A DNA stretch of 58,331 nt from Ephemerocybe angulata (lineage: Eukaryota > Basidiomycota > Agaricomycetes > Agaricales > Psathyrellaceae): contig JAACJK010000022.1 of NCBI GenBank assembly GCA_013368325.1, positions 1 through 58,331 on the forward strand, written 5' to 3'. Positions 3,008 through 27,226 of the stretch are shown piece after piece (position 1 is the stretch's first letter; each line of letters begins with the position of its first letter). The notes under the pieces were generated by a model. That model was not told where the DNA came from and did no database searches. It worked only from the letters and a program-made list of their open reading frames with translations. The position numbers and the translations under genes are program-made.

Positions 3008-4293
3008 TACTCTATTGGAAAAACCCACAGAAACTAAGTCCTCGTCAGAGCCGAGCCTTTCTCACCCTGTCCAAATACGACTTCGAGCTGAAACACCAAC
3101 TGGGATCCAAGATGTACCAATCCGACGCACTCTCCCGACGACCCGACCTGTGCCAAGACGATGGGGGGCAAGAAGAAGTTACAATGCTACCGCCAGAACT
3201 ATTCGTGAACCTTATCGACACCGTCCTCCAAAACGAAATCCTGCAGAAGACGACCTCCGACCCTAACGTTACCCAAACCCTTCAACTTCTCCTTAACGAC
3301 AATCCATCAATCCATCAGAAAGACCTGAAAGATTGGACAATCGAGACAAAAGATGGTGGCCACATGCTGTTCCGAATCGGAAAAGCTTACATACCGGATG
3401 ACCCCGAACTCCGATGCAAGATCGTGCGTGCCCATCACGACTCCCCCACCATTGGCCATCCTGGAGAACTAGGCACCTTCAACGCCGTCCGTAAAAACTA
3501 TTGGTGGCCAGCCATGAGGATTTTCATAAAGTCTTTTGTCGAAGGATGCACCCAGTGTCAGCAATTCAAGATTAATCGCCAACCCACGAAGCTGACTCTT
3601 TTACCCATCACTGCCCCGGAAAGCAACAGACCATTCACACAGCTATCCATGGACTTTATCACCGATCTCCCTCCATCCAATGGCTTCGACTCAATCATGG
3701 TCGTGGTCGACCATGGCCTTTCGAAGGGGGTAGTTTTCGAACCCTGCAACAAGACCATCACATCAGATCAAGCCGCTGAAGTCCTGACTCGCCGGATCTT
3801 TACCAATTACGGCCTACCTGACAAGATCATCTCCAACAGAGGCCCCCAATTTGCTGCGAAGACATTCAGAGACCTCCTGACCCGCCTCGGAATCGACTCC
3901 TCTCTCTCCACTGCTTTCCATCCACAGACCGACGGAGGTACAGAAAGAGTGAATCAAGAAATCGAAGCCTACCTTTCCATCTATTGCACCGCCAACCCTC
4001 ACACCTGGAGCACAGCTCTACCTCTACTCCAATTCGTTCATAACTCTCGTCGCCACGCTGATAGAAATCAGACCCCATTTGAACTCATCATGGGAAGCCA
4101 ACCACAGGCTCTCCCAGAAGCATTCGAAAGATCACCACTCCCACAGACACAAGACCGACTCCAAGATCTAGACAGGATCCGAAACGAAGCCCTCGCTGCC
4201 CACGAACTCGGTCGTGTCCGAATGATCAGCCGCTCATTCAGACACTGGAAACCCTTCAAGAAAGGAGAACAGGTTTGGCTCGAAAGAAAGATG
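3008..4293 (+). pseudogene. Gypsy RNase H C-terminus and integrase fragment
   Basis: The frame starts LYWKNPQKLSPRQSR, runs through the RNase H end motif (SDALSRRPD at about 3121), then the integrase HHCC zinc-binding region (HHDSPTIGH...CTQC, about 3435-3560) and the catalytic core. The first core aspartate is in LSMDFITDL. The second should lie in a conserved SDRGPQF motif but reads SNRGPQF, a loss of a catalytic residue. The glutamate is in TERVNQEIE. Sequence typical of integrase stops at about 4293 (QVWLE), where DIRS-like sequence begins. The next in-frame stop is at 4341, inside the inserted element. Confidence 0.92.
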
Positions 4294-5361
4294 GTAATCT
4301 CAGGGAGTGTAATGAACCGGAGAGTGAGGTCTACGGGATGAGTCAGCGTGGTGCACAGCATCTTTCTTCGCTCTGCACCACGTCCTCCCAGAGACCGCCG
4401 ACACTCTACTTCGCAGTAGAGCACTCAGTATCGCCGAAAAAATAACTATTTGCGTTCATTCCTATCGAGTACATTCGTTCGAAATCGAAAATCGAAAATC
4501 CAGTACAAGATGACCGACACCACGAACAACCCCCACAACGATGTCTGCCCCGACTACACTCTCTCCGTCTTCGACGACTTGCGCAAGACCTACGAGAACA
4601 AAGGGATGACGAGGGAAGAAGCCGTTAACATGCTGAAGGCGTCTTGGGAGGCCCAGAACGCCATCGCCAGGGCGCGATGGGATCAGTTGGCCCCGGAACG
4701 TTTGGAGATTGCAGCCGAAGAAGCACGCAAAGCCGAGGAGACGGCTCAGTTGCGAGAGGCCGCCGAGAAGGAAGAAGCGGAAGCAGCTCTAAAGGAGGAA
4801 CGACGGAAGAATAGGGCGAAGTACTTGCCTGTTTCGGTTGGTGTGGGGATGCCCGACAGACCTACGGTCAGATTCCCTCCCTCCGTGCTGCAGAAACTGA
4901 GAAAGGGCGAATACGTTGACCTATGGTACGCCACCGATGCGGGCTTGACGGCTATGCTTCAAGACGTAGGGTCTGTTCAGTCCCAAAGACTCGTGCCGGA
5001 GCAAGATGAAGACGGAAGCGTCGCTTACGTTCCGGAGGTGGCGTTGAAGGCATCGAAGGCTTTAGTCCGAGATGAAAGCCTGTCTTGGGAACAATTTCCC
5101 ATTGCCTACATGCGTCTGATCCCTGCCATGCGAGATGCTGGGTGGGAAAAGGACAGTGTCAGCATGTTTGGCAAGTTTTGGTCGTCGTTGCAGATCCACC
5201 CTTGGGCCACATCGCTCGACTCGACGGGGTGCGACCGACACGCCCTCCTCATATACCAAGCCGAGCAGCGCCGCCAGTGGCACCTGATTGTCCAAAATGA
5301 CCACCAGGTCCCGGATATCTCTGTCCTGAACGAGTTCGCGCTTCAGAGAGCTCGGGACGAG

Positions 5362-6018: not shown

Positions 6019-6474
6019 TCCGACCCTCGTCGTCGATGCCGACCGATGTGTCGATGCGCTCGAACGACTGTAGATACAGTCGTACGCAGCAAGCTGCCGA
6101 CTCCGGGCGCTCTCGCCCGTCGAGTAACCGCCGTGATCGGCGCGACCGCCGTCGTTCTGCCTCGCCCCAGCGCCAAAGTCGTGCCCGCTCTCGGTCTCGC
6201 TCCCGCAGCCGGGATTTTCGGGACGGCGCAGGTGGTCAAGCCCTACCTGCCTGCGCCGTCTGCCTGGGGCGCCACAAGCACGCCGACTTCGCCAACTGCA
6301 AGGAAAAGAGAACGTGGGACGACAAACATCCGACGATCTCCCAGCGCAACTCGGGAGCCCTCACCCTCACCGCCGGCAATAGGCCTCTCTGTGGAAATTG
6401 GCAGCTCCCGCGAGGTTGCACCAGCCTCCTCCACCCAGAACGACACGTTTGCTCGGGCTGCTCCTCTGTCAAGC

Positions 6475-8457
6475 ATGGAGCTCAAGACTGCCCTCGAGCG
6501 CAGGCGGTCTCAGCCTAGAACACCATACCGGGTGGAGGAGTGGAGGCGGGCATTGCGGGAGGCGGGATTGGAGGAAGAATGGGAACACGTTCTATGGGGT
6601 TTGGAGCATGGGTTCCTCGTCGGATTCCCCATCCTCTCTGCCTCCCAGCTCCCGGACAATTACAGCTCGATCGACGAACACCGGGAGCATTTCTCCAAGA
6701 TCGTACGGGCAGAGGTGGAGAAGGGGAGATGGATTGGACCTGTTACGCGCGATGTTCTCGAGCGTGTTATGGGGCATGTACAGTCGTCGCCTCTCTCCAT
6801 CATCCCCAAGGCTACCCCTGGCAAATACCGCGTTTTGCAGAACTTCTCGTCACCCCGCCGTCCTTCCCCGTTGCAGAACCCATCCATCAATAGCTTCATC
6901 GACTCGTCGGACTTTCCGTGCACTTGGGGAACTTTTCGTTCCATGTGCATTCTCATCTCGAAGCTGCCGCCGGGCTCTCAAATGGCCGTTCGTGATATCG
7001 CTGAAGCTTACAGAACGGTTGCTCTGCATCCTTCGCAGTGGCCAGCGGCCGTGGTTCGCGGCTTGGGAGAGGAGTTGTACGCTGACGTGTGCGTGGCCTT
7101 CGGTTCTGCGTCGTCTGGGGGGATTTATGGTGCCGTCGATGATGCGATGTGCGAAATCTTTCGTTCGAGGGGTGTGGGGCCCGTATCGAAGTGGGTGGAT
7201 GATCACCCCTTCTTTCGGGTCCTTAGGGAGCATCTGGAGGAGTTTAATCGGGTTAGGGAGAAGTGGAGGAGAAGGATTGAAGTGGAGGGGAGGCATCAGA
7301 CGAATAGTAGGGTGTGGTTTGGGGGAGGGACGATGGCAGATGGAGGGGTGTTTGAGGTGTTCGAGGATTGCCGGTTTCCGGTGCGCGACCTTTCTGGTTG
7401 CTCGCCTCGCTCCGAAAAGGACGGGGAGTACACCTCGTGCCTGGCCGACATCGACGCCATTGCTGACTGCCTCGGCGTCGGCTTTGAGAAGTCGAAGGAT
7501 GTGGACTTTTGCACCGTCGCACCCTACATTGGGTTTCGGTGGGATCTGGAGCGGCGCACGGTGGAGCTTCCGAGGGAGAAGGCCGACCGTTACATTGTGG
7601 CCATTGAGGAGTGGCTGGCGCGCTCGCGGCACGACCTGGAGCAGATTCAGCATATATACGGCAAGTTGCTCCATGCTTCCCTTGTTGTTCCAGCAGGACG
7701 AGCAAGACTCACGGGTCTCGAGCGCGCCCTCGGTCTCGCGCACGCAAACCCGTTCATGCCGCGACATCCCCCACGTTCCGTTCGACCAGACCTCGAGTGG
7801 TGGGCCGAGCGACTGCGTAGGACTGACCTCCGGCGTTCAGTCGTTATCCCGGAAGACCTCGTCGACCTCGGGGCTTTCTCCGACGCCAGTACCGGCACAG
7901 GGATTGCGATCGTCATTGGAGATAGATGGCGCGCCTGGCGCCTTCTCCCTGGTTGGCGCACTCGCGATGGGGACAAGGACATCGGGTGGGCTGAGGCAGT
8001 CGGTTTCTTCTTCCTTGCCGTCGCCCTCACTCGCATGGTTGGACCTGGGACGCACCTTCGGTTGTTTGGGGACAACGAAGGGGTGGTCAAAGGCTGGAGG
8101 AACTCGCGGAGTCGGAATGCCGCTGTCAACAATGTCTTCAAGCTCCTTCTCGATCACCTCGAGCTCGTTGATTTCGTCGGATGCATCCACTGTGAATATG
8201 TACGCACCGACGTTAACCCAGCAGACGGGCCGTCCCGCGGTATCCACCCACCTACCAGCAGACTCCTCCCTCCAATCGATATTCCTGAATCTCTCCGGGC
8301 CTATATCATCGACGCTCTCGACCCCGTTGCTCTCGACGCAGCCGTACCTTGTGAAGATGTCGAACGAAGCGGGGGTGGGGCTGGAGAGGACTGCGACGAG
8401 GATCAGGACGGTCAGGATGAGTTCGACGAGGTCGAATGTCTCGGCAGGGCCATCTAG
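6475..8457 (+). CDS. DIRS-like reverse transcriptase-RNase H
   Basis: The likely start is ATG 6475 (MELKTALERRRSQPRTPYRVEEW), overlapping the end of gag by about 40 nt in another frame; the open frame itself extends further upstream. The product is about 660 aa. The reverse transcriptase has the first catalytic aspartate in VRDIAEAYRTV and the active-site pair in KWVDDHPFF. RNase H follows with DASTGTG, the glutamate in GWAEAVG, FGDNEGVVKGW and the final aspartate in ADGPSRG. The DD pair preceded by WV instead of YX is usual for mushroom DIRS relatives. The 3' end overlaps the recombinase frame by about 100 nt. Confidence 0.88.
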   Translation: MELKTALERRRSQPRTPYRVEEWRRALREAGLEEEWEHVLWGLEHGFLVGFPILSASQLPDNYSSIDEHREHFSKIVRAEVEKGRWIGPVTRDVLERVMGHVQSSPLSIIPKATPGKYRVLQNFSSPRRPSPLQNPSINSFIDSSDFPCTWGTFRSMCILISKLPPGSQMAVRDIAEAYRTVALHPSQWPAAVVRGLGEELYADVCVAFGSASSGGIYGAVDDAMCEIFRSRGVGPVSKWVDDHPFFRVLREHLEEFNRVREKWRRRIEVEGRHQTNSRVWFGGGTMADGGVFEVFEDCRFPVRDLSGCSPRSEKDGEYTSCLADIDAIADCLGVGFEKSKDVDFCTVAPYIGFRWDLERRTVELPREKADRYIVAIEEWLARSRHDLEQIQHIYGKLLHASLVVPAGRARLTGLERALGLAHANPFMPRHPPRSVRPDLEWWAERLRRTDLRRSVVIPEDLVDLGAFSDASTGTGIAIVIGDRWRAWRLLPGWRTRDGDKDIGWAEAVGFFFLAVALTRMVGPGTHLRLFGDNEGVVKGWRNSRSRNAAVNNVFKLLLDHLELVDFVGCIHCEYVRTDVNPADGPSRGIHPPTSRLLPPIDIPESLRAYIIDALDPVALDAAVPCEDVERSGGGAGEDCDEDQDGQDEFDEVECLGRAI

Positions 8458-9610
8458 TGGTTCCACCCGGGCCCTTCGGATCTCCGTCCTGCGCCCACCG
8501 TGCTTATGTGCAGACCGTTTGCGCATTTGGCGCCCATTAATCTCGGGTTTGGGAGGGTCGGTGTCGGTGGAGAGGGCAGAGCGTGTATACGACATGTTGG
8601 CGATGACCTGGTCTCGGGCGACGCGGCGTACGTATGGGGCGGGTTTGCTGGATTTCCACGTCTTTTGTGACCTTCAGATACCCCCGGTGCCCGAGTCGCA
8701 GAGGGCCCCGGTCTCTATGGGGTTATTGCTTGAATTCCTCAGCTCGTGCGCTGGTATGTACTCCGGTTCCACGGCAAAGAATTACATTTATGGCGTCCGG
8801 GCCTGGCATACTACCCACGCTATCCCCTGGCGGGTGAACGAGATACAGCTCTCGGCGGCTCTTACGGCCATAGAGAAGATGACTCCTCCTTCGTCTCGTC
8901 GCCCGAAGCGTCCTCCAGTGACGGTCGACTACATCGAGAAGCTTGCGCCGTTTTTCAATCTTGCATCACCATTCGACGCAGCTGTTTTCGCCGCACTCAC
9001 GACTACCTTCTGGTCGCTCGCTCGCTTGGGCGAGTTCACGGTCAACCCAGATAAGGGCCCTTTCAGCCCGGACACTCACGTAACGCGCTCAGGGGTCAGT
9101 TCGGAGAGTTGTGTTGGAAGGTTAGGGCTGCCGGTCACCACCTTTTTCCTTCCTACCACGAAGACGGCGCCTGTGCACGGCGAGCGTGTCCAGTGGTCGC
9201 GTCAACAGGGTCCGTCTGATCCGCAAGCGGCTTTAGACGCCCATCTCGCTGTCAATGACCCGGGCCCGAATGACCACTTGTTCGCGTGGAGGTCAAAGGG
9301 GCACCTGAAGCCGTTGGAGCGTAGTGTTTTCCTACGTCGGGTCAATCAAGCTGCAAAGAAGGCTGGTCTTTCGCGCATGCAGGGGCATAGTCTTAGGATC
9401 GGCGGAGTGCTCGAGTTTTTGTTGCGGGGTATTCCGTTTGATGTTGTGAAGGCGTTAGGGCGGTGGGCGAGTGATGCTTTCACTCTCTACCTCAGGGAAT
9501 CGGCTGCGATTCTGGCACCGTACATCCAGGATACCCCCATTCTTGCAACATTCTCGAGCCGTTCATCCGTATCGCGATGCCGTCGCGCGTACGTTAGACG
9601 CCGTTTTTAG
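8357..9610 (+). CDS. DIRS-like tyrosine recombinase
   Basis: The likely start is ATG 8357 (MSNEAGVGLERTATRIRTV), giving 417 aa. The N-terminal part (about residues 70-180) resembles the core-binding domain of phage-integrase-type recombinases (WSRATRRTYGAGLLDFHVFC). The catalytic residues are visible: Arg in SLARLGEFTV, the His-x-x-Arg box GHSLRIGG, and the nucleophilic Tyr in FTLYLRESAAILAPYIQ. These complete the R...HxxR...Y set, so the enzyme looks intact. It would resolve and insert a circular cDNA copy. Confidence 0.88.
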   Translation: MSNEAGVGLERTATRIRTVRMSSTRSNVSAGPSSGSTRALRISVLRPPCLCADRLRIWRPLISGLGGSVSVERAERVYDMLAMTWSRATRRTYGAGLLDFHVFCDLQIPPVPESQRAPVSMGLLLEFLSSCAGMYSGSTAKNYIYGVRAWHTTHAIPWRVNEIQLSAALTAIEKMTPPSSRRPKRPPVTVDYIEKLAPFFNLASPFDAAVFAALTTTFWSLARLGEFTVNPDKGPFSPDTHVTRSGVSSESCVGRLGLPVTTFFLPTTKTAPVHGERVQWSRQQGPSDPQAALDAHLAVNDPGPNDHLFAWRSKGHLKPLERSVFLRRVNQAAKKAGLSRMQGHSLRIGGVLEFLLRGIPFDVVKALGRWASDAFTLYLRESAAILAPYIQDTPILATFSSRSSVSRCRRAYVRRRF

Positions 9611-13690: not shown

Positions 13691-13961
13691 AATGCTAGCC
13701 TCTCGACGAACGGCGATCCCATCGCATGGTTGCGTATCGGCGCTTGCGCCGATCGCTGTTGACAGCTACCAGTTACAGTATACACTCATCAATGTCCTAC
13801 ATCCCTCTGAATCGGCGAAAAGGATTCCTTCAGGGGTTTGACCACTGCCACTTTGGCACAATGCTTTCCTTCAGTTCCAATTCTCGGTGATAAAATTATC
13901 CTGGAGCTGTAACTCGAACTCTGAATAGTGAGATCAGGGCAGCTATGATCGTAGTACCCGT

Positions 13962-14070
13962 CTCGAACCATGAAACCCGACCTATACGTACGGTGCACAC
14001 ATAATTGGATTGTGCGAAGTACCCGAAATTTGTATGCACCGTACGTATAGGTCGGGTTTCATGGTTCGAG
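13962..14070. repeat. Perfect 36-bp inverted repeat with 37-bp loop
   Basis: The 36-bp arm at 13962-13997 (starting CTCGAACCATGAAACCC) is repeated as an exact reverse complement at 14035-14070. The 37-bp loop carries no gene. No clear target duplication flanks it. The perfect match implies recent origin or selection. Confidence 0.92.
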
Positions 14071-14640
14071 TATTCAACACCATGAATCCCGATCCTTAAC
14101 ATTCACTATGGTACGTGTGAGTAACGCGCGTTCTTGAAGAGCCGTGAACTCATATCACTCAACTTACCAGTCTGGCCTCGAGGTATCCTTCGATCCATTG
14201 TTCGAGATCCGTCCAAAACCGGATGCCGAGACTCGTCGGCAACTCGTCGGCATACCCGCCTGGTCCCACCGAGGCGCATCATTTCAAGGCCTCCTCCCCA
14301 CCCTAGCCTGTGACTGGTAAAATGGAGGCCCATGGGCCGACTAACGATGAGCGGCAAGGACGCTGGCCGTGGGACCCACGTATTGCGAAGCGATCTTGCA
14401 TCGGGGGGGCCGTGGGACCCTCCCCGAAGCATTGTTCACCTATTTTCAAAAGGGGGTTACCAATCGACCGAGATCGCACGTACAGACAATGCATCACCGA
14501 AACCGTAACCAATATCCAATATCGTAAGGTTTCGACTTCCTTCTCCGGAGGTACGTAGACCCCAGGCGCCTTGCCTCATCAGACCACTATGGGAGGAGGG
14601 AAAAGTTTGACCGCACTATAGGCCCCGCACAACACAGATA
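14071..14640. other. Non-coding stretch
   Basis: I see no supported gene, repeat or element here, only short chance frames. Confidence 0.5.
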
Positions 14641-14725
14641 TGAATATAAACTGGAGGCGCTAGTACAATCTTACTCCCAGAAATACTTCACGTTCCCCCC
14701 AAACGTTCCACACACTAAGGTCATA

Positions 14726-14897
14726 ATGCGACTGTCCCTGCCCACCCTCATTTCCGTCGTCGTCTCTCTGGTGCACATCGTCAATGCCCAGCAGGATGTA
14801 CGTCCCTCTAACGCCCGATTCAAGCTGACTCTGAGTGCTGATTCCAAATAACATACTTTTCCAGTACACTCTCAGTGAGGGGAAGGTACACTTCTAG
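14726..14897 (+). CDS. Signal-peptide exon of a small secreted protein, cut short by array A
   Basis: A TATA-like ATATAAAC (14644) is followed by ATG 14726 and a clean signal peptide (MRLSLPTLISVVVSLVHIVN, then AQQD) with a likely cleavage after VNA. A donor GTACGT at 14798 and acceptor TTTTCCAG ending at 14864 define a 67-nt intron with good branch-like sites. The second exon reads YTLSEGKVHF and stops, giving only 34 aa. The second exon lies in the edge of the repeat array that belongs to minus-strand gene A, so the original secreted gene was probably overrun by the array. It could still yield a short secreted peptide. Confidence 0.55.
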
Positions 14898-16995
14898 GGA
14901 AAGAACGACGTACGAACTGGAGGGCAGGGGCACGGAACGGTCAGCGAGCGGTATGTACGGTTCCAGGGGAAGACCGACGTACGGACTGGGGAGTAGGATC
15001 ACGGAGCGGTCAGCGAGCGGAACGTACACATCCAGGGGAAGAACGACGCACACCCTGGAGAACAGGAGTACGAAACGGTCAGCAAGTGGAATGTGCACTT
15101 CCGGGGGAAGAACGACGTACGCGCTGGAGAACAGGAGCGCGGAACAGTCAGATGTGTGCTTCCGGGAAAAGAACAAGACATGTACTAGGAGCTGGCAAGC
15201 AGGAGCACGGAACAGTCAGCGAGCGGAATGTACGCTTCCTGGAGAAGAAAGAGTGCCGTACCGGTTGCCTGTCCTACGTAGTTCTAATAATACTATTTGC
15301 TTTTTCGGGAGGAGTCAACGGCTCCTCCCGGCGCTGCTATTTCCTCGTCCCTTTTGAGAACCGACATTGGTCTGGATAAAAGACTTGTGTTTTCCAAAGG
15401 GCAATGGAGCCCGTTCAGGCGAGGACAAACACGGTGTGATGATGGTGCTTACGAGAAGGCGCTGACATAGGGTAGGACCTTTGTTTGGTCGACTTGAATC
15501 TCCTTGGTCTGTTGACTAACCTCTGAGACCTTTGTGGAGAGGGTCAGCGCATTCGGTCTCGTTAATTTATTCTTCATCTTCCATCATCGTTGTTCGTCCT
15601 CGACCTCAAGTTCTGAATTTTTTCGTCTCCCACCCACCCACTACCACAAACAGGAGTGCCGTACCGGTTGCCTGTCCTACGTAGTTCTAATAATACTATT
15701 TGCTTTTTCGGGAGGAGTCAACGGCTCCTCCCGGCGCTGCTATTTCCTCGTCCCTTTTGAGAACCGACATTGGTCTGGATAAAAGACTTGTGTTTTCCAA
15801 ACGTACAATCTGGGGAGCAGGAGCACGGAGCGGTTAGCGATCGGAATGTGCGCTTTCGGGGGAAGAACGACATACGCTCTGGAAGGCAGGAGCACGGAGC
15901 GGTCAGCGAGCAGAATGTGCGCTTCCAGGGGAAGAACTACGTACAAACTGAAGAGCAGGGTCACGGAAAGGTCAGCAAGCTGAATGTACACTTCAAGGGG
16001 AAGAACGACGTACGGGCTGGAAAGCAGGAGCACAGACCAGTCAGTGAGCAGAATGTGCACTTCTAGTGAAGGGGAACAACTTACGCCGCTCTGGACAGAA
16101 GTGAGTACCTGAAGGCTTAGCAGAACTCGACATCACTCACACTGTTCACACGTTCCTTTACAACATGTCTGAAAGATCCTATTTCCTTGGGACTTCTAGG
16201 AGGCCGGGGAGAACGATCTGGTCTCATCGAGCATAGGTAACGCATCTTGCATCTACGACTATACATACTTGAGTTTAGTGAACATGGGACTGCTCATAAA
16301 GTTGAAGTACTCACCACTTAAGCCAACCGCCCTCCCTGGATGACCCCAGCCTCGTTCTGCCGCATTTTGGGCATGTGTCCTTCACCGACTCCACCCACAC
16401 CTTCTCGATCAGCATACTCATCACAATAACCTCACCTGCTTCAAGGACCTCCTTCCAATCCTCAGGCTTAACCAAATGACCATCGTGCTGTCTAGCAAAG
16501 CGATACTTCTTCTCGGCTACCAGTTCTTCCCCTAACACCCCCCGGAAGTGCTTCACCAGGAAGTCATGGACGTCCTGACAGTGCGTTGAGCAAGCGAAAT
16601 GAGGTTTGGACGAGTCGTTCATACCTCAAATTCGGAAACAATGCTGAGTGGCAGGATTACATGTTCATCGAGGGCGTCAATAATCGTGATGCTGTTGGCA
16701 CTGGAGTATCCGACGTGCTGATAGATGCTCCGGTATGCGAGCTCTGCCTGCCGAAGTTGGGCGAGTATACGCTCAACTATATGATCCCCGGTTGTTCTTT
16801 AGTTCATTCCAAGCATACATTACAACAAACATTTGAACGTACGGTGGGCCGATCGATGCTACTGACAGCATAGTCTCCACCGATGGCATTGAACTGACCT
16901 CCACCGACGGAGAAGTTCGAAGCACCAGCGAAGAACTGTTGGAAGAGCTCGGTAGGCGGGGCGGGATACCTCGTCAATAGCCTCGATGGTTCCAT
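14820..16995 (-). CDS. Gene A: ubiquitin-like domain + zinc ribbon protein with single-codon microexon tail
   Basis: Exon 1 (16863-16995, start and donor uncertain) encodes the N-terminal motif FFAGASNFSVGGGQFNAIGGDY. Exon 2 (16625-16776) has a helix and the start of the ubiquitin-like domain (SITIIDALDEHVILPLS). Exon 3 (16315-16574) finishes the domain (LVKHFRG...VIVMSMLIEKV) and has CPKC. Exon 4 (16141-16258, 118 nt) has CRRC and FRHV. Introns are 50-86 nt. The CPKC...CRRC pair suggests a zinc ribbon. From GTGAGT at 16140 the gene enters array A: a 6-nt exon (16085-16090), then 3-nt exons at 16014, 15945, 15876, 15807, a 6-nt exon at 15186, then 15121, 15052, 14983 and 14914, and a last exon 14820-14855 (YVIWNQHSESA, stop). 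The domain resembles the mushroom ULD_2-type ubiquitin-like family (from memory). Role unknown. Confidence 0.75.
14856..16140 (-). repeat. Array A: 69-bp units = 66-nt intron + 3-nt exon
   Basis: On the minus strand each unit starts with a donor (GTACGT in most; also GTAAGT, GTATGT, GTGCGT, GTACAT), has a branch-like GCTGAC or CTCAC about 28 nt before the end, a pyrimidine-rich stretch, and ends CCAG or TCAG. Three bases follow, then the next donor. Intron lengths are 66 in most units (62 and 68 also seen). The triplets are CCC, TTT, AGC, ATT, CGC, GGT, TCC and TTC, plus two 6-nt exons AGCGGC and CTCCTA. The flanking bases are nearly invariant while the triplets all differ. One intron (15192-15806) is enlarged by a 551-bp insertion. 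Confidence 0.9.
15251..15801. mobile_element. Small element with identical 148-bp direct terminal repeats (TRIM-like)
   Basis: The segments 15251-15398 and 15654-15801 are identical over 148 bp and flank 255 bp of unrelated sequence. Each repeat contains a short hairpin (GGGAGGAGTC...GCTCCTCCC) and can be read as TG...CA at its ends. The architecture fits a terminal-repeat retrotransposon in miniature, but I could not confirm a target duplication or primer site. It lies inside one intron of array A just after the donor, enlarging it to about 615 nt. Identical repeats imply a recent insertion. Confidence 0.7.
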
Positions 16996-19990: not shown

Positions 19991-20258
19991 CCCCATACGA
20001 CGCCCCAACAGACATGAAACAGCACCCAGTCTATCATCTGGCCCACCCGGCACTTGCGCACATCCCACGTCCGCCTCGGCGCCCCGAGTTCGATTCTCTC
20101 CTCGCACACATTCACACAAGTGCGCCCTCCTGCCCATTTACGTCTGCAGCTGGTGCTCTACAGTCACTTGACCTCGTCAGCTATTGCCGAGCGCGATGCC
20201 ACGCCGTGCCTGCTCTAGCCTCCCAAAGCGCTAGCCGCCCGCACCATCCCGCGCACCC

Positions 20259-20633
20259 ATGTTCCCGCTGTCGTTTCGTTTGTCTGATATGGGTTCATCT
20301 GCATGGGGCAGGCGGGGTGATGGGAGCCGCTTGCCTTCCGCACTGTCTTACGCCGCCCGACCAACTGCTGCGCCGCTTCTTGGAATCTCGGCTGGTTCGT
20401 CGCTCGGTGGAGGAAAGAGGCTTCTTGCGCTCTGTGATATCAACCAGCGGGGCGAATGGATGTGGGATGGATTCGCCTCGAGCTCGAGAGTACTGTTCGA
20501 GGGAGAAACGATGGGTGGACGGCGTGGAGGGCTACTCGATGTGAAGAGGAGGGATGGAGTGACGTATCGGAGGGTTAGATCCCCGGTGAGTCGCGTCGTT
20601 CATCGCTCGGTCGCGTTCATCGCTACTTTCTAG
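20259..20633 (+). CDS. Hypothetical exon, Gly/Arg-rich, unrecognised
   Basis: The frame contains the protein-like stretch LLALCDINQRGEWMWDGF followed by SSRVLFEGETMGGRRGGL, and could splice at GTGAGT (about 20587) to a downstream exon near 20637. I do not recognise a family. It may be a remnant of a decayed gene in the fast-evolving subtelomere. Confidence 0.25.
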   Translation: MFPLSFRLSDMGSSAWGRRGDGSRLPSALSYAARPTAAPLLGISAGSSLGGGKRLLALCDINQRGEWMWDGFASSSRVLFEGETMGGRRGGLLDVKRRDGVTYRRVRSPVSRVVHRSVAFIATF

Positions 20634-20639
20634 ATTCAC

Positions 20640-22230
20640 GATTCCAGCCCAACATTCGGTCAACCAAGCTCGAACATTCCGTTTGACACACCCACCCGCT
20701 TCGCACCTGCCTTGCCTTTGGCATTCGCCCTCGATCGCAATCGCACCACCACACGAGCCGGCTCTCGACTCGATCGGGACTTCATTCGTTCACCCTGCTC
20801 TCGACCCTAACCTCCAGGCAGCCCGAGTACTGCCCCTTACCTCGTGGATCCTCGATGGGAGGACGAGCGACATCGCCGTGCGCTTGAGCATATCATAGGA
20901 GATGGAGGGCGAGAAGAGGTTGGATCGGAGGGATGGCGGTGAGGGGCGGTCGTGGACTGTGTTGTGAGATGTGTTGGGGATGCTGAGAGGGAAGCGTATG
21001 TGGAATGTTCGCGTGATGGCACACTGCTAGATTGCCAGGTGGTGTACGTGCGTCGTTGGAGGGGACGAATCCGTTCCCCTGTTCGTCGTATCCGTGGACT
21101 TGGTTGGTTCTGCTTCTCTTTAGCATGGGGTCATCGGCGGCAGTGGTGTGATTGGATCCATTCTGACGCCGTCCCTCCGCGCATTCAGTCACTTTCGCCG
21201 TGCTCGTGCTCATTCGAAGGATGACAGTGGACACGAGACGAGCCTCAAAGAACACTCTTAAACGCGTCGGAGGCACGATGAGACGACTCGCAGACCTGTA
21301 GCACCATGGAACTTGGACTTCGGTCGGTGTATGTCCGTATGACAAGCGACTCTCACTAGTGCAGGTGATACGGAGGTATGTCATCTTCCTCTCTATTCTT
21401 TCCTTACCTTCCTTCCGCCATATCACTTCAATGCATCGCTCGAAGTCACCCAGAAATAGGCCCTGCCCGCAACCCAAGCATCATTGGTACTCGATGTACT
21501 CCCCCTATCATCCAGCTTTGCGCACGAACCCCAAGTTCGGTGACGAACTCGATTCGGCATCCACCCGCACGATTCAACTGGAGGTGGGAAGCGATCTCCT
21601 GCAGTATTGACGAACGAGAGTCCGAGACTCGGCTTGAGATCGGAATGCAGTGCCTCGACGACTGAACGCGCTTCATTCCTGCCTAACCGAGACACGTTCG
21701 AGGAGAGGGGTCGTGTATACACACCTACACGGCATTCATGCATCTGCACGGTACGTCGCATGCGTCAGACGGCGAAGGTGCGCTCAAGGTGCGTTGGTAC
21801 TGTGAGTTGGACCGTGTCGCCCTGTGGTTAGGCTGCGACGAGGGGGGCCCGGGGCGATCCTGGGATGGGATGGGGCGGTGGTAAATGGGATGGGCGGGAC
21901 TCGGGGTGAAGCTAAAAGGGAGAAGGGTGGAATCTGGCCGGTAGCGTGTAGCGTGTAGCGCGTCAGTATAGGCTCCATATTCGGGGTTGATCGATCATGT
22001 TTCGCGCGGAATTGTATTTGCTCTTTGACCGACGACGACGCATGAGGAGGATGAGCAGCCGGATAGACTCAGCGCATGACTCAGCGTTTTACAAGTAACT
22101 CGACATCACTGGCAGTCGCGGCCTTGTGCGAAGATCGCACCGAGAGGAACTCTAAGAGGCCGTTGGTACTAAACAGGGGGGTGCTCGTGCGTAAGAAGGT
22201 GCAGTCGCGAATTAAGACGCGAGCCGGTGA
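20640..22230. other. Non-coding or unrecognised stretch
   Basis: Only short overlapping frames on both strands are present. I see no motif, signal peptide or intron pattern that I trust. Confidence 0.4.
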
Positions 22231-22236
22231 ACGACG

Positions 22237-22303
22237 AAATCATTGGAAGGATAGAGAGTTCGACGTCTTTACCAGTGATGTGGGATAGGGTGAGGTTCTT
22301 GAT
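22237..22303 (-). repeat. Duplicated exon-like segment, copy 1
   Basis: About 67 bp closely match 25569-25635. On the minus strand this copy reads NLTLSHITGK and then a possible donor GTAAAG. It is probably an exon relic of a gene family whose other copy lies beyond gene B. The function is unknown. Confidence 0.5.
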
Positions 22304-22661
22304 GCACGTTGTGAGTTGGACGATGAAGCTCGTAGTGACTCTATCAATCATCTCCGCAACACTTACCCTGCATCCAAGTACGTGGTTGTGTGCACTCGGG
22401 GATTCAAGAGGTCATCTCGGTGAGGATGCAGGGGCCGAAGTGGATGGTTCGGGGACTACGGACCTTTAGAAGCAGTTCATTAATAAATCGTGTCGCAAAG
22501 TGGGGAAACAATAGATTATGCGGCCAGACATTTGTATGGCAATTACAGAGAGAGGAATAGAAGGTGTCGAATAATACATAATACATCCAGATATTCTAAA
22601 TTAATATTAGTGGGGCCATGACGGATAAAGAGAAAACGCACAGGTTGCGTGGATCCAATCT

Positions 22662-25108
22662 CTACAGAGTACCAGCCTTACAACGCCTATCCATCCAGCT
22701 CTTCAACTGTATGATAGCGTTAATATAGTGCATTGAGATGCTGGGCTGCGTGTACGTACATCTGGAGTTTTCTTCTTGAGCTATACGGCGATGCTAGAGG
22801 TTGGTCGAGGTTGCCCATCCATAAATACTTCTTCAATAATCCTCAAATTAAAACGGGACATACCTGCTGGATTTTCAGAGACCGATGGGCAGTGAGCTCT
22901 CGCTTTCACCTGTCAAGCTGGGCGTGAACTCACGTCCTGCACGGTCCAGGACACCGATCTATCAACACTTGGTTCTCTCAGTATTCAAAAAGAAACACGA
23001 CTTACTACCTAGAAATTCAGAGATGCCCAGCCGTGAGTAAGGTAGTCTTCGGTTTTCGGAGAAAAACGGGACTTACGATCTAAGGATTCAGAGACGCAAA
23101 GTCGTGAGCGCTCTGCTCTCAGTGATCAAATCGTACCGGGACTTACATCCTGCAGGGTCGAAGACGCCGCTGAGCGCTCGGTTCTCAGTGGCCAAAGCAA
23201 AACAGAACTTACCTCCTGTGGGTTCGGCGAAGCCGAGCTTTGAGCATTTCTTTCTCTGTATTCAAAGGGAAATGAGACTTACCAGCTAAAGATTTGGGGA
23301 CACCGAAAGTAAGCAGCCGGTTATTAGCGTTCGAAGTGAAAAAGGACTTACAAACTAGAAATTCAAAGGCCAAGTTGTGAACACACGCTAATGATTAACG
23401 CGAAACAGGACTTACACCCTACGCGGTCAGCGAAGGCGATCCGTGAACGCTCATGTCTCTGTGGTGAAACCGTAAATAGACTTACGTCCTGCAGGTTCGA
23501 TGATGCCACTCCGTGAGAACCTGATTTTCGGTGTTCAAAGGACAACAGGACTTACATACTAGGAATTCAGAAATGCCAATCGATGATCAGTTTTCAGTTT
23601 TCAGGGCTCAAAGTGGGACATGGCCTACTGCCTACGTATACAGCGTCGCCAAGCTATTAGCATGATGCCCAGTGCTCAAATTGAAACTGGACGTACTTCC
23701 TGAAGGTTCAAAAACGCCAAGACGTGAGCGTGGTCCTATCTTCGAAGTGAAAAACAGAACACACATCCTGAAGGTTCAGAGATGCAGAGCGATGAGCACT
23801 CGCTTTTCAGCGTTCAATTAAACCACGACTTACATCCTGCATATTTAATGACAGAGTGCTATAAGCACGAGGTTTTCAGTGGTTGAAGAAAATGACAACT
23901 TACTTCCTGCATATTCAGATACAGAGCACCGTGAGTGCTTGGTTTTCAGTGTGCAAAGCGGACCTGAACTTACAATCTAGAGATAGTGAGCAATCAGCTC
24001 ATCCGGCCGGGTTAAGACTGGAACATACCATAATCTCCTGCCTTCGCACGTGGCGAAATGCCCATACCTCGTTATCTCCGGCTTCAGCTTCCTGTTCGCG
24101 TACCTGCGGTTCCCCTGGAAGCATAAATCTAGTAAAACACCTTCGACTACCCCCCCATTAGCCGGACAGTGACATCGACATGATTGCGGGGCAAGAACAC
24201 GTACCACACTTGCCACCCTTGGTCCACATATGTTCCAAGTTCCGTCCTCCCACATTTTGGACACATTTTCCTGAGCTCTTCCGCCACCGCCTGTTCGATT
24301 AGCATACTCATTACCAACTGCTGGCGTTCATCCCTAATTCTCCGCCAATCGCTAGCCTGGACCACAATTCCATCGTCTGATCCTGCTACCCGTCCGACGC
24401 AGTAACGCCCCTCTGTGACGCGTCGCTCTCCTATTTTCCCCCTGAAATGGTTGACTAATAGGCGTTGCAATTCCTGTTTCACCGATATCATTAGCATCTA
24501 AAAGTAAAATAGATGGGACTATAAAATCACTCGCATCGTAGGTCGGCACGAAACTCCATGGGACAGTCAGGGTCTCTCCCAACGCATCAGTGATAATCAG
24601 CGCATTTGAATCACTGTGGCGAACGGCGGCGGGAAGGGCTCGTTGAAATTCGTTCACAATCCGACGTACTAAGGTCGATCAGGGTGGTACCCAAAGAAGT
24701 ACGGCTACCGGAAGACGTACGCTCCTCAGTGTCGCTATTCTGGAATATCATATCTCCTCCGATGTCGTACACGGTCCATGCGCCGGTCGAGAAGTTGCTA
24801 CTATTGCTCAGTATATGGAGCTGGCGAGCATGTAGTGTTCTATCTGACGGAGATTGATTACTACCCTCGGGTGGCTGCTGGGGCATTTCCTGACGTAGGG
24901 CCGTTTTGAAAGGAGTTTGGCGGTTGTTACGAGGTAGCTGAGGCAGTTGCTGATGAGGAGGTGGTATCGTTTCTGACGAAAAGTGTCTTCACATCAGACG
25001 CTCGACCATCCCTAGACATCCTGTATACTCACCGTTCTTTCTACTCTGTACCGGAGACGTATCTCTGGAGCCTCCGATACGGTGATCCCAGCCTGGTCTG
25101 CTGCCCAT
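22662..25108 (-). CDS. Gene B: ubiquitin-like domain + zinc ribbon protein with single-codon microexon tail
   Basis: Exon 1 (25033-25108) encodes MGSRPGWDHRIGGSRD. Exon 2 (24721-24972) is Pro/Gln-rich, then NSSNFSTGAWTVYDIGGDM. Exon 3 (24535-24668) starts the ubiquitin-like domain (ALIITDALGETLTVPWSF). Exon 4 (24205-24473) ends it (LLVNHFRG...VMSMLIEQAV) and has CPKC. Exon 5 (24029-24146, 118 nt) has CRRC and FRHV. The introns are 60, 52, 61 (a GC-AG intron with TGCTAAT) and 58 nt, and all phases agree over 849 nt. From GTATGT at 24028 the gene enters array B: 17 exons of 3 nt that read IEDDEAYDGFLEDIVDQ. A possible 6-nt exon (22756-22761) and last exon LKSWMDRRCKAGTL (22662-22706) would end it. 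Without splicing into the array it stops at 23999. Function unknown; it is the paralogue of gene A. Confidence 0.78.
22864..24028 (-). repeat. Array B: 17 introns separated by exactly 3 nt
   Basis: Triplet starts (plus coordinates) are 23974, 23904, 23834, 23765, 23697, 23629, 23556, 23486, 23416, 23352, 23283, 23213, 23147, 23077, 23006, 22934 and 22864. On the minus strand every triplet is preceded by YAG and followed by GT. Twelve donors are GTAAGT; the others are GTGTGT, GTACGT, GTAGGC, GTGAGT and GTATGT. The introns between triplets are 61-70 nt. Nearly all carry a CTNAY-like site (CTCAC, CTAAT, CTTAC, CTGAT, CTCAT) 20-35 nt before the acceptor. In order, the triplets are ATT GAA GAT GAT GAA GCA, TAT GAC GGT TTT CTG GAG, GAT ATC GTA GAC CAG. 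Units are more diverged than in array A. Confidence 0.92.
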
Positions 25109-25568
25109 GATTGAACGATGAAAGAAAGGAGTGTCAACGGAAGGAAGGAACAGCGCACTCCTTCAACTGTTGCAAAATAGTGGAAGGGCTTCTATCTCCG
25201 GTGAGGACGCATTTGTTTGGAATGATGGAGGGACGGTCTGATTAAGGAGGAGATGTCCGGTCCGTGTATGACGGAGCCACAGATAATTACTGTCACTCGG
25301 GCTATGGAGGAGACATGTAAGCAGCAGGTACATGTTCCTCTGCTTCCAATCCACTGGTAATCATCTCCGTGGAACTCCGCGCACTCATACTCGAATATTT
25401 CGCGCGAAGTAAAACTAGAGTGTGAAGTTGCAATGAAATGTGGCTCAACCATTATATAGGGACTAATTTAAGGCTGTCTTGACCTGGTGACTGACTGAAG
25501 CGCTGGTAGTACATTCAAGCGCCAGTCCGGGCGCCTAATATATCGACGCTAGTCAACTGGTGGACAGG

Positions 25569-25635
25569 AAAATCATTGGAAGGGTAGAGAGTTAACACTC
25601 TTGCCCATGATGTGGGAAAGGGTGAGGTTCTCGAC
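25569..25635 (-). repeat. Duplicated exon-like segment, copy 2
   Basis: This matches 22237-22303. On the minus strand it reads ENLTLSHIMGK. An in-frame TGA lies just upstream, so this copy looks broken if it was coding. Confidence 0.5.
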
Positions 25636-25639
25636 TCAG

Positions 25640-26310
25640 ATGCACCTGGGGAGTCGGAGATGGAGGTTGGGCTGAAAGTGCACACCTTGAGGATTTCTAA
25701 TCGCCATTGCGTTCGAGTATTGCATGAACGGGGATAAAATGGGGTACAAAGCATAGGGATAAACAAAAAGATAAAGAGGATGTGATTTCAGGACTCAACG
25801 GTATGCCTGGACGCGCATCCGAGGGCGCCGAGGATAGAATTTAGGTAAAAGATCGACGAGAGGCGTTTGATTTATGATGCGTGCGATATCATCGCTCTCC
25901 CTAGACCTATGACCAATATGTGTGACACTACAAGATACAGTAGAAGATGGGGTCGGAGAAAATGGGTGTCGGTTAGTCAAAAGAGGGCAAAACGCTCGGA
26001 ATACAATCACCACACACCGGAAATCGCCGATCTCTCTCCGCGCCGCACGTACCCGAGGGAGCGAGTTCGTCATTCCAGTGTCTACGCCTTGCAGCAGTAG
26101 AGTGGTAGAGATGGGTACCGGGTAAGCCTTTAATATCATGTGTTCATAGTAAGTATCATTGGGAACATCGTTCGACTAAATACATACGTAAATCTGTTTA
26201 CAGCATAGGCCATTTACTGGAACTCATGATCATGAGCCGCATTCAGTAGGGATAGAATGAAGTGATACCAAACACCACCTATGGTCACAATTAGGATGTG
26301 ATCCACGACT
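25640..26310. other. Non-coding stretch
   Basis: I see no supported gene between the duplicated segment and the gag-like gene. Confidence 0.45.
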
Positions 26311-26314
26311 TTCT

Positions 26315-27226
26315 CTACCTAATTCGAGAGCGCTTCCTGTACCTCTCCCTCCTATATTCCCTATCGAAATGCAACACTTGTTCCTTCCACTCTGTCAAAT
26401 CACTCGGTCGAGGATAACTTTCAACCACCTTCCTCCTTAATCCCCTCGCCAGTCCCTCTCGGTACATTTTCAACAGAGTAATATCATCATACCCCGCCTC
26501 ACTCGCGTAACGGTCGAATTGCAGCGTGTAATCGGCACAGGTCTTATTCCGCATGGTGAGGGCATCGAGAGTGTTTCTCGAGAATTCCTCCACGCCCATT
26601 GGTAGGAAGTGGGCCTTGAACTTCTTCATGAAGTCCCTCCAGTCTCCAAAGATAGGAACGACAGTGTCGAGGTTAGGTTGTGTTTCCGCTCCAAGTCGCT
26701 GTATCTCCTCAAACCACAGCCGTTGTCGCATAGTGTCCGCCCAATTTGTCGCGCTTCTGTTCGTGCTCCTTCCTATCAGCCCCAAGGCGTATATTATCCT
26801 TCTCCGGTCATCAACTTCGCCTATCGCGTTGAGGTATAAGTGAACGTGGGCCAGAAACGGCATTACTTGTTCTAGTTCTCCGTTAAATGGTTCGGGCTCT
26901 GTGAAGTTGCATCTGGGTTCATTCTCATCTCCGTATTCCGCCACCTCAAATCGCGTGATGAAAGCACCTTCGGCGGCTTGGTTGAGGGCTTCATTCTGCA
27001 TGTTTATGGCGGCTATGGTGGCTATGGTCGCTTCTTGGAAAGGAAGGCCTTCCCGTACTCTGCTCGGAGGCAAAATCGATCGTTTGTCTTCCTCCGTGGG
27101 AGGACGCATCCTCGGTCGTCCATCCCTAACATATTGCACAAGCGCCAGTCCTAACGCTACCCCAGACTTGAAAAGGAAAGCAGCGTATGCTATGAAAGCG
27201 ACGGGTGTTAGGAAGGCTTTGAGCAT
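26315..27226 (-). CDS. Gag-like protein with N-terminal membrane segment
   Basis: The product is 303 aa (start MLKAFLTPVAFIAYAAFLFK). Residues about 4-30 are hydrophobic and could span a membrane. From about residue 105 the protein resembles the capsid region of Ty3/gypsy Gag: FNGELEQVMPFLAHVHLYL, WADTMRQRLWFEEI, DFMKKFKAHFLP and DRYASEAGYDDITLLKMYREG. There is no zinc knuckle; it ends in a basic Arg-rich tail. No protease, pol or LTR is visible on either side. It may be a solo gag relic or a domesticated gag. The intact frame favours the second or a recent origin, but I cannot tell. Confidence 0.75.
   Translation of the reverse strand: MLKAFLTPVAFIAYAAFLFKSGVALGLALVQYVRDGRPRMRPPTEEDKRSILPPSRVREGLPFQEATIATIAAINMQNEALNQAAEGAFITRFEVAEYGDENEPRCNFTEPEPFNGELEQVMPFLAHVHLYLNAIGEVDDRRRIIYALGLIGRSTNRSATNWADTMRQRLWFEEIQRLGAETQPNLDTVVPIFGDWRDFMKKFKAHFLPMGVEEFSRNTLDALTMRNKTCADYTLQFDRYASEAGYDDITLLKMYREGLARGLRRKVVESYPRPSDLTEWKEQVLHFDREYRRERYRKRSRIR

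Follow-up and report, generated by a model that had tools for sequence, protein, structure and literature searches.

In the microexon genes (MEG) of schistosomes and the bicycle genes of aphids, the protein is encoded largely by many consecutive tiny exons of about 5-36 nt that preserve the reading frame. A different kind of variable coding sequence is found in the repeat domains of fungal NLR/HET genes, where conserved tandem repeats carry a few hypervariable codons. In the literature found, exons of 1-3 nt occur singly or in twos, and in a search that covered mainly papers outside subscription, consecutive 3-nt exons in a run were not found described. Drosophila homothorax (hth) has a 3-bp micro-exon, which according to the accessible part of the report was abolished by a change of GTAAGT to GTTAGT (PMC7392893). 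Accessible portions of other reports describe one-nucleotide exons in Arabidopsis APC11 (PMC4674806; PMC8831610) and in Fusarium CYP621A (PMC12940212), and conserved GTRAGT donors at the one-nucleotide exons of VPS55 (PMC8831610). The known cases show that splicing of 1- to 3-nt exons is feasible, and they point to strong donors. Here we describe a locus at which putative exons of one codon follow each other in a long run.

The window analysed is the whole stretch of 58,331 nucleotides of Ephemerocybe angulata DNA. The array lies on the minus strand, towards the 3' end of gene B, which encodes a ubiquitin-like protein of the ULD_2 type (PF22893). The PF22893 score is 45.1 bits for the conserved part and 51.8 bits for the full spliced model, both above the curated Pfam cut-off of 24.5. 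ULD_2 is the sole Pfam match above cut-off in the full spliced model, in which no NACHT/NB-ARC-type domain was found. A CxxC...CxxC pair lies downstream of the ULD_2 domain, and two zinc-ribbon Pfam matches in gene B both remain below cut-off. Elsewhere in the window are a retrotransposon gag-like ORF upstream of gene B (26315-27226, minus strand; Retrotrans_gag, E=1.4e-9), an integrase (3112-4341, plus strand; H2C2 and rve) and, at 6398-9610 on the plus strand, a long ORF whose phage-integrase-like match stays below cut-off; the last two are likely mobile elements near one end of the window.

The spliced model of gene B comprises 24 exons, and its 954 coding bases contain a single stop, at the end; it reads MGSRPGW...FRHVRRQEIM, then IEDDEAYDGFLEDIVDQ, HRRIAQEENSR and FEELDG. 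All its features are on the minus strand. Exon 1 (25033..25108, start ATG at 25108) has an N-terminus that matches P0016, the deposited model of the ortholog in another strain, and exon 2 (24721..24972), also backed by P0016, encodes the N-terminal segment with SSNFSTGAWTVYDIGGDM. Exon 3 (24535..24668; ALIITDALGETLTVPWSF), where Pfam and the spliced model place the start of the ULD_2 domain, is followed by a predicted GC-AG intron (intron 3, 24474..24534; GCGAGT..CAG). Exon 4 (24205..24473), supported by protein search, spliced model and Pfam, holds the remainder of the domain and the first CxxC (CPKCGRTELGTYVDQGWQV). Exon 5 (24029..24146), conserved in paralogs, is the final long exon before the array and extends from the second CxxC (CRRC) to FRHVRRQEIM.

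An earlier note on this DNA, written from the letters and their open reading frames, had drawn attention to 17 consecutive YAG-NNN-GT units, and these are indeed present on the minus strand at 23979..22864. Twelve of the 17 donors are GTAAGT, as it had counted, and the 16 introns between the units measure 61-70 nt, the spacing it gave. Its entry in phase 0 from the last conserved exon is borne out by a 52-nt intron (23977..24028; GTATGT..TAG), whose junction is the same in the mapped P0016. The chain scan, the parser and the spliced model agree on the array itself, 17 three-nt exons and 16 introns at 22864..23976. The first bases of exons 1-9 are 23976, 23906, 23836, 23767, 23699, 23631, 23558, 23488 and 23418, and those of exons 10-17 are 23354, 23285, 23215, 23149, 23079, 23008, 22936 and 22866. 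The triplets are, in order, ATT GAA GAT GAT GAA GCA TAT GAC GGT TTT CTG GAG GAT ATC GTA GAC CAG, which gives the tail of one residue per exon that the note had read. Without splicing, the frame hits a stop at codon 10 of the first array intron. For the end of the gene the note was right about the array and incomplete at the 3' end, where two further conserved exons follow in frame (22793-22760 and 22706-22687). A 70-nt exit intron (22794..22863; GTATGT..TAG), again shared with P0016, leads to the penultimate exon HRRIAQEENSR (22760..22793), similar in paralogs (REQAQSESR, RRAEVEEESR), and a last intron of 53 nt (22707..22759; GTACGT..CAG), also found in the mapped P0016, precedes the last exon, FEELDG plus the stop codon (22687..22706; spliced model and P0016). 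The array thus enters and leaves in phase 0, into a terminal exon pair that is similar among paralogs.

The array is a trait of the gene family. Protein search finds 15 ULD_2 family loci in the E. angulata genome, and the family analysis, made on the window and 13 further genomic stretches, shows arrays at 11 of them. They range from 5 to 56 units, with a longest unbroken run of 29 and a cleaned total of 197 units. Besides the 17 of gene B, there are 8 in the second window gene (B2; split 4+4), 10 in C13_262k, 21 in C13_315k (11+10 flanking a 9-nt exon), 10 in C13_329k, 27 in C13_394k, 13 in C13_241k, 56 in C13_338k (29+12+15), 5 in C208, 12 in C139 and 18 in C150 (9+4+5). The largest array (C13_338k, at C13:335000-344900) covers about 5 kb and has an insert of more than 1 kb, with a long T run, before its last 15 units. 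The ULD and first CxxC exon of B2 (16314..16577, minus strand; protein search) is 44% identical to gene B. The chain scan places its units CCC TTT AGC ATT at 15807..16019, with introns of a different family (GTACGT..CTGAC..CAG), and CGC GGT TCC TTC at 14914..15126, separated from the first four by other DNA; both groups are on the minus strand. Within this interrupted array (13900-16600, minus strand) a stretch beginning with TTTGGAAAACACAAGTCTTTTATCC is present twice, and is perhaps a small mobile element. The interrupted arrays of B2 and C13_338k may be in dead genes. Four loci have no array: three C214 paralogs, which have an unbroken tail that differs by eye from the array tails, and a C104 copy that by eye looks truncated. 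In a tree of the ULD exon, with only 2 of 13 inner branches starred, arrays occur in both deep subfamilies, so the design is probably old, or else was exchanged between subfamilies. The two subfamilies differ in intron consensus, yet both consensus lengths are 66-67 nt, and in both a branch-like site lies 24-25 nt from the 3' end by manual count on the consensus.

A dynamic-programming parser that weighted every exon length from 1 to 60 equally was applied to 15 loci. On the gene strand 157 of its 204 exons, a total that includes parts of ordinary exons, were 3 nt long, and on the opposite strand 0 of 44. A stricter first version, which put heavy weight on the branch site and broke arrays, had given 103 of 128 and was then loosened. 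Accepted array exons of other lengths were three of 9 nt (CGTCGGCGC twice and ATTAGACAT) and three of 6 nt (GACACT, AGCGGC and GACGCA). Eight parser pieces of 21-36 nt within arrays are taken as choices of an earlier AG, because on inspection each of them closes with AG and a triplet. Before cleaning, the 200 triplets contain 1 stop against 5.5 expected from position-wise shuffles (P=0.017), the cleaned 197 contain 0 against 5.1 (P=0.0024), and with each triplet counted once per gene (n=133) there are 0 against 3.3 (P=0.024); all P values given for the units are optimistic, since the units are related by duplication and the counts are not independent. The cleaned set leaves out three units by inspection: TAC in C13_241k, which overlaps the pre-array donor, GCG in C13_329k, which lies within the entry intron, and, by judgement, TGA at the edge of the C13_338k insert, the one stop found. 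Measured against the codon usage of long ORFs, the triplets also outdo 5000 of 5000 shuffles, in the sets of 200 and of 197 and with or without stops; for the 133 once-per-gene triplets, with sense codons only, p=0.0036. For gene B alone the same test is not significant (p=0.12), its 17 units being too few.

The splice signals of the arrays were compared likewise. Of 176 array introns, 164 have a YTNAY where the branch site is expected, against 71.5 in shuffles, and intron lengths fall into the three classes modulo 3 as 87, 55 and 34 of 176. In gene B the mean pairwise identity of the intron body is 0.58, and GT and AG are intact in all 17 units; at the decay rate of the body this would have a probability of roughly 1e-8, a rough figure, since the chain finder accepts only units with AG and GT and is thereby biased to intact ones; the gene B array has no degenerate gap within it. 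Among the 197 donors are 105 GTAAGT, 36 GTACGT and 2 GTTAGT, the last being the very change that abolished the hth exon, which counts against single-codon splicing. Four of the 11 arrays, from both subfamilies, have TGG as their last unit, compared with 6 of 197 units overall, some of the genes being close relatives. On these sequence grounds, the array triplets are very probably coding. The predicted exons are many, consecutive, internal, well under 30 nt and divisible by three, as in microexon genes, whose exons are also included in the mature mRNA.

Genome-wide, pairs of YAGNNNGTAAGT gave 69 matches and pairs of YAGNNNGTACGT gave 15, and 84 of 84 lie within ULD_2 family loci; the version of the pattern with a 6-nt exon gave 0. 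A chance or satellite origin of the matches was considered, as a backwards-pattern control returned 55+20 matches, above the pattern's own count, and was rejected when these were traced to satellites of another kind on C77, C97, C122 and C227, with a single further match on C55. The control thereby brought up a satellite with TGAATGAGGGACAAAGG units on C97, C122, C227 and C77. The chain scan, which covered the window and 13 family loci with exon lengths of 0-30 and at least 4 units, found 19 chains of length 3, all on the gene strand. The 6 chains of other exon lengths (10, 12 and 27) were discarded; all are antisense to arrays, two of which account for the whole set. DNA probes of 211 and 234 bp from arrays matched clear homologous units in the C13 and C150 arrays, and among the best candidates scored none lay outside ULD_2 family loci. 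The tandem-repeat finder (TRF) reported no tandem repeat in window positions 20000-27000. The array is real and not due to chance, and in the searches made it is found in one gene family only.

The deposited gene models bear on the array in several ways. P0016 contains ...FRHVRRQEIM-I-E-... and has HRRIAQEENSRFEELDG at its end; its mapping to the window gives introns at 24028-23977 and 23973-23907, which leave the exons ATT and GAA, and, at the 3' end, introns at 22863-22794 and 22759-22707. This comparison is limited to its first three introns and its last two, as its middle runs through array introns, with a mapping score of -109 of 670. The last array codon is K in P0016 and Q in gene B. 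P0014 appears, by hand comparison, to read one residue past the first intron and then to enter the next, and D9611_012609 (P0024), from the genome's own annotation and likewise compared by hand, leaves out most of an array and has translated sequence from inside one of its introns. A homolog in Coprinellus micaceus, P0004, has VSPVSFEQ as its last residues, and back-translation of these gives an array-type donor. Six-frame translation of 182 kb contains VSPVS 17 times, with an array donor at the start of 16 of them. This resemblance to read-through of an array-type donor hints that the array may predate the species. A whole array is in none of the 25 deposited proteins examined, and the models disagree inside arrays. 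The family models of two E. angulata strains go astray at the array, as probably does the one from Coprinellus micaceus, and such genes may therefore be overlooked in other genomes.

The introns and triplets of an array evolve at different rates. In five young arrays (C13_262k, 315k, 394k, C150 and B2) average pairwise identity is 0.80-0.84 for introns and 0.18-0.46 for triplet sites, and of the 66-67 intron columns at most 4 reach the variability of a triplet site; these arrays have a few hypervariable codons in conserved repeats, a feature of the fungal NLR/HET type. The contrast is smaller in older arrays (gene B, C13_338k, 241k and C139) and not significant in C208 (five units, p=0.18). 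Between pairs of units, flank differences of 1.7%, 6.4%, 10.9% and 16% go with triplet differences of 4.2%, 23%, 53% and 68% (8, 13, 88 and 631 pairs), in a set of 194 units that still includes TAC and GCG and excludes TGA and the five units of C208. These figures suggest that units were duplicated and that their codons then changed at several times the rate of the introns. In the cleaned units of six arrays, non-identical near pairs show a one-base change in 0.44-0.50 of cases, versus 0.17 in distant pairs, and 3 of 27 one-step pairs are synonymous against 30% expected, the pairs not being independent. Exact recent block duplications are seen in C13_338k and C150. For the fast codons, either selection favours new residues, or the intron copies are homogenised while the codons are kept.

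The predicted tails of GTAAGT-type arrays are rich in helix-forming and charged residues. Helix formers make up 93 of 159 residues (41% expected, p=1e-5), and Pro and Gly together are depleted (8 of 159, p=5e-4); the tail of C13_338k spells EEERERLESEHQAMEHRIEELKHQA. The helix bias is absent in GTACGT-type arrays (7 helix formers of 38). One may guess that the tail is a variable interaction segment.

Single-codon exons between fungal introns, as the earlier note proposed, are the best fit to this evidence, and we are fairly confident that the 17 single codons of gene B are spliced as three-base exons into a 17-residue segment between conserved exons. The prediction draws its support from the length-neutral parser, the scarcity or lack of stops, the codon-like triplets family-wide, entry and exit in phase 0, the conserved terminal exon, the splice sites kept in diverged arrays, and the model from the other strain with the first two single-codon exons and the same terminal exons. 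On the other side stand the array-less paralogs, the interrupted arrays, the GTTAGT donors, the codon-usage test for gene B alone, the disagreement of deposited models inside arrays and the lack of a helix bias in GTACGT-type arrays. The introns are short (61-70 nt), their donors are strong (GTAAGT or GTACGT) and they have a branch-like site; they would be recognised by intron definition, and their removal would probably be sequential, the growing exon gaining one codon per step, because a 3-nt exon offers little space to factors on both sides at once. That the array is removed instead as one or a few long introns, which would join the FRHV exon to the terminal exon and leave the triplets as relics or decoys, seems improbable to us. 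Skipping the whole array would keep the frame, as both ends are in phase 0, and P0024 does skip most of an array, then reading inside an array intron. A long intron would measure at least 1.2 kb, atypical for gene B with its introns of 52-70 nt, and triplets within it could become stops or leave codon usage, which they largely do not; the enrichment of TGG in last units and the retention of splice sites in diverged arrays are also against it. We give very little credence to a non-coding minisatellite that carries YAG-NNN-GT by chance, with the gene ending by read-through in the first intron. Although young arrays consist of repeated units of some 70 bp, with exact recent block duplications, and P0002, P0003, P0004 and P0014 are among the deposited models that stop close to the first array intron, the variable part is the three bases between splice sites, in two different unit families. 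Moreover, a terminal exon similar among paralogs follows in frame, pattern matches are confined to the ULD_2 family and 3-nt chains to its coding strand, and the gene B units, too diverged for a tandem-repeat finder, nevertheless have GT and AG in all 17.

How such exons arose is a separate matter. Introner-like intron copies could have invaded a contiguous coding tail between its codons, an origin we consider unlikely. Near-identical introns between unrelated codons are its expected outcome, and the presence of the 9-nt exon CGTCGGCGC in two paralogs versus separate CGT and CGC exons in another suggests that introns were gained or lost between the same codons. On the other hand, neither array probe had a match outside the ULD_2 family among the best candidates scored, exact block duplications are visible, and the array-less C214 paralogs by eye have a different tail. 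Closely similar units also differ more often by single steps, in 8 of 18 non-identical pairs at a flank distance of 0.1-0.125, versus 17% of distant pairs. In the reading we favour, arrays would grow or shrink by duplication or loss of codon-plus-intron blocks without shifting the reading frame, and with codons diverging several times faster than introns, tail length and sequence would vary by single residues among paralogs. In a more tentative reading, which we rate at a little under an even chance, the array may be a system of codon cassettes in which the unit is one codon plus one intron. Duplication, loss or skipping of a unit would alter the protein by one residue with the frame kept, and the array would be a built-in diversifier of ULD_2 tails. 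The similar introns would supply homology for exchange, and tails would be diversified over evolutionary time and perhaps, where exons are skipped, from one transcript to the next.

If transcripts confirm the predicted splicing, this would be an exceptionally extreme way of building a protein segment. With 17 to 29 units in a row, such runs would challenge the spliceosome with exons too short for two-sided recognition and would test its handling of them, as well as the order and accuracy of intron removal across dozens of consecutive splicing events. The array would also be a rare genetic design, altering a protein by whole residues while the non-coding part repeats.

Among the described systems, the 3-bp exon of hth is, in the accessible text, a single exon produced from a 48-bp exon through alternative splicing, whereas gene B has a run. 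APC11 and CYP621A indicate, as far as their accessible texts go, that plant and fungal spliceosomes can include 1-nt exons, which are isolated there and arrayed here. Another fungal gene has two 3-nt exons among more than ten introns, and the accessible part of its description reports no repeat structure. Fungal introner-like elements (ILEs) are, like the array introns, near-identical introns multiplied in a genome; in the accessible part of their description they lie in unrelated genes, two of them 145-626 bp apart in four fragments, whereas the array introns stay within one gene family and are 3 nt apart (PMC4457414). ILEs are recognised as near-identical introns in many unrelated genes, and the probe matches listed here are all in ULD_2 loci. 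The repeat domains of fungal NLR/HET genes are treated in a paper available to us in part (PMC4986451). The whole repeat is coding in those genes, and here only one codon per repeat is. Compared with the array, the exons of MEG and bicycle genes are larger and unrelated in sequence, and their introns are ordinary; here nearly all array exons are one codon, and the introns are mutual copies. The array belongs with the microexon-gene kind, and its tandem design of codon plus intron sets it apart.
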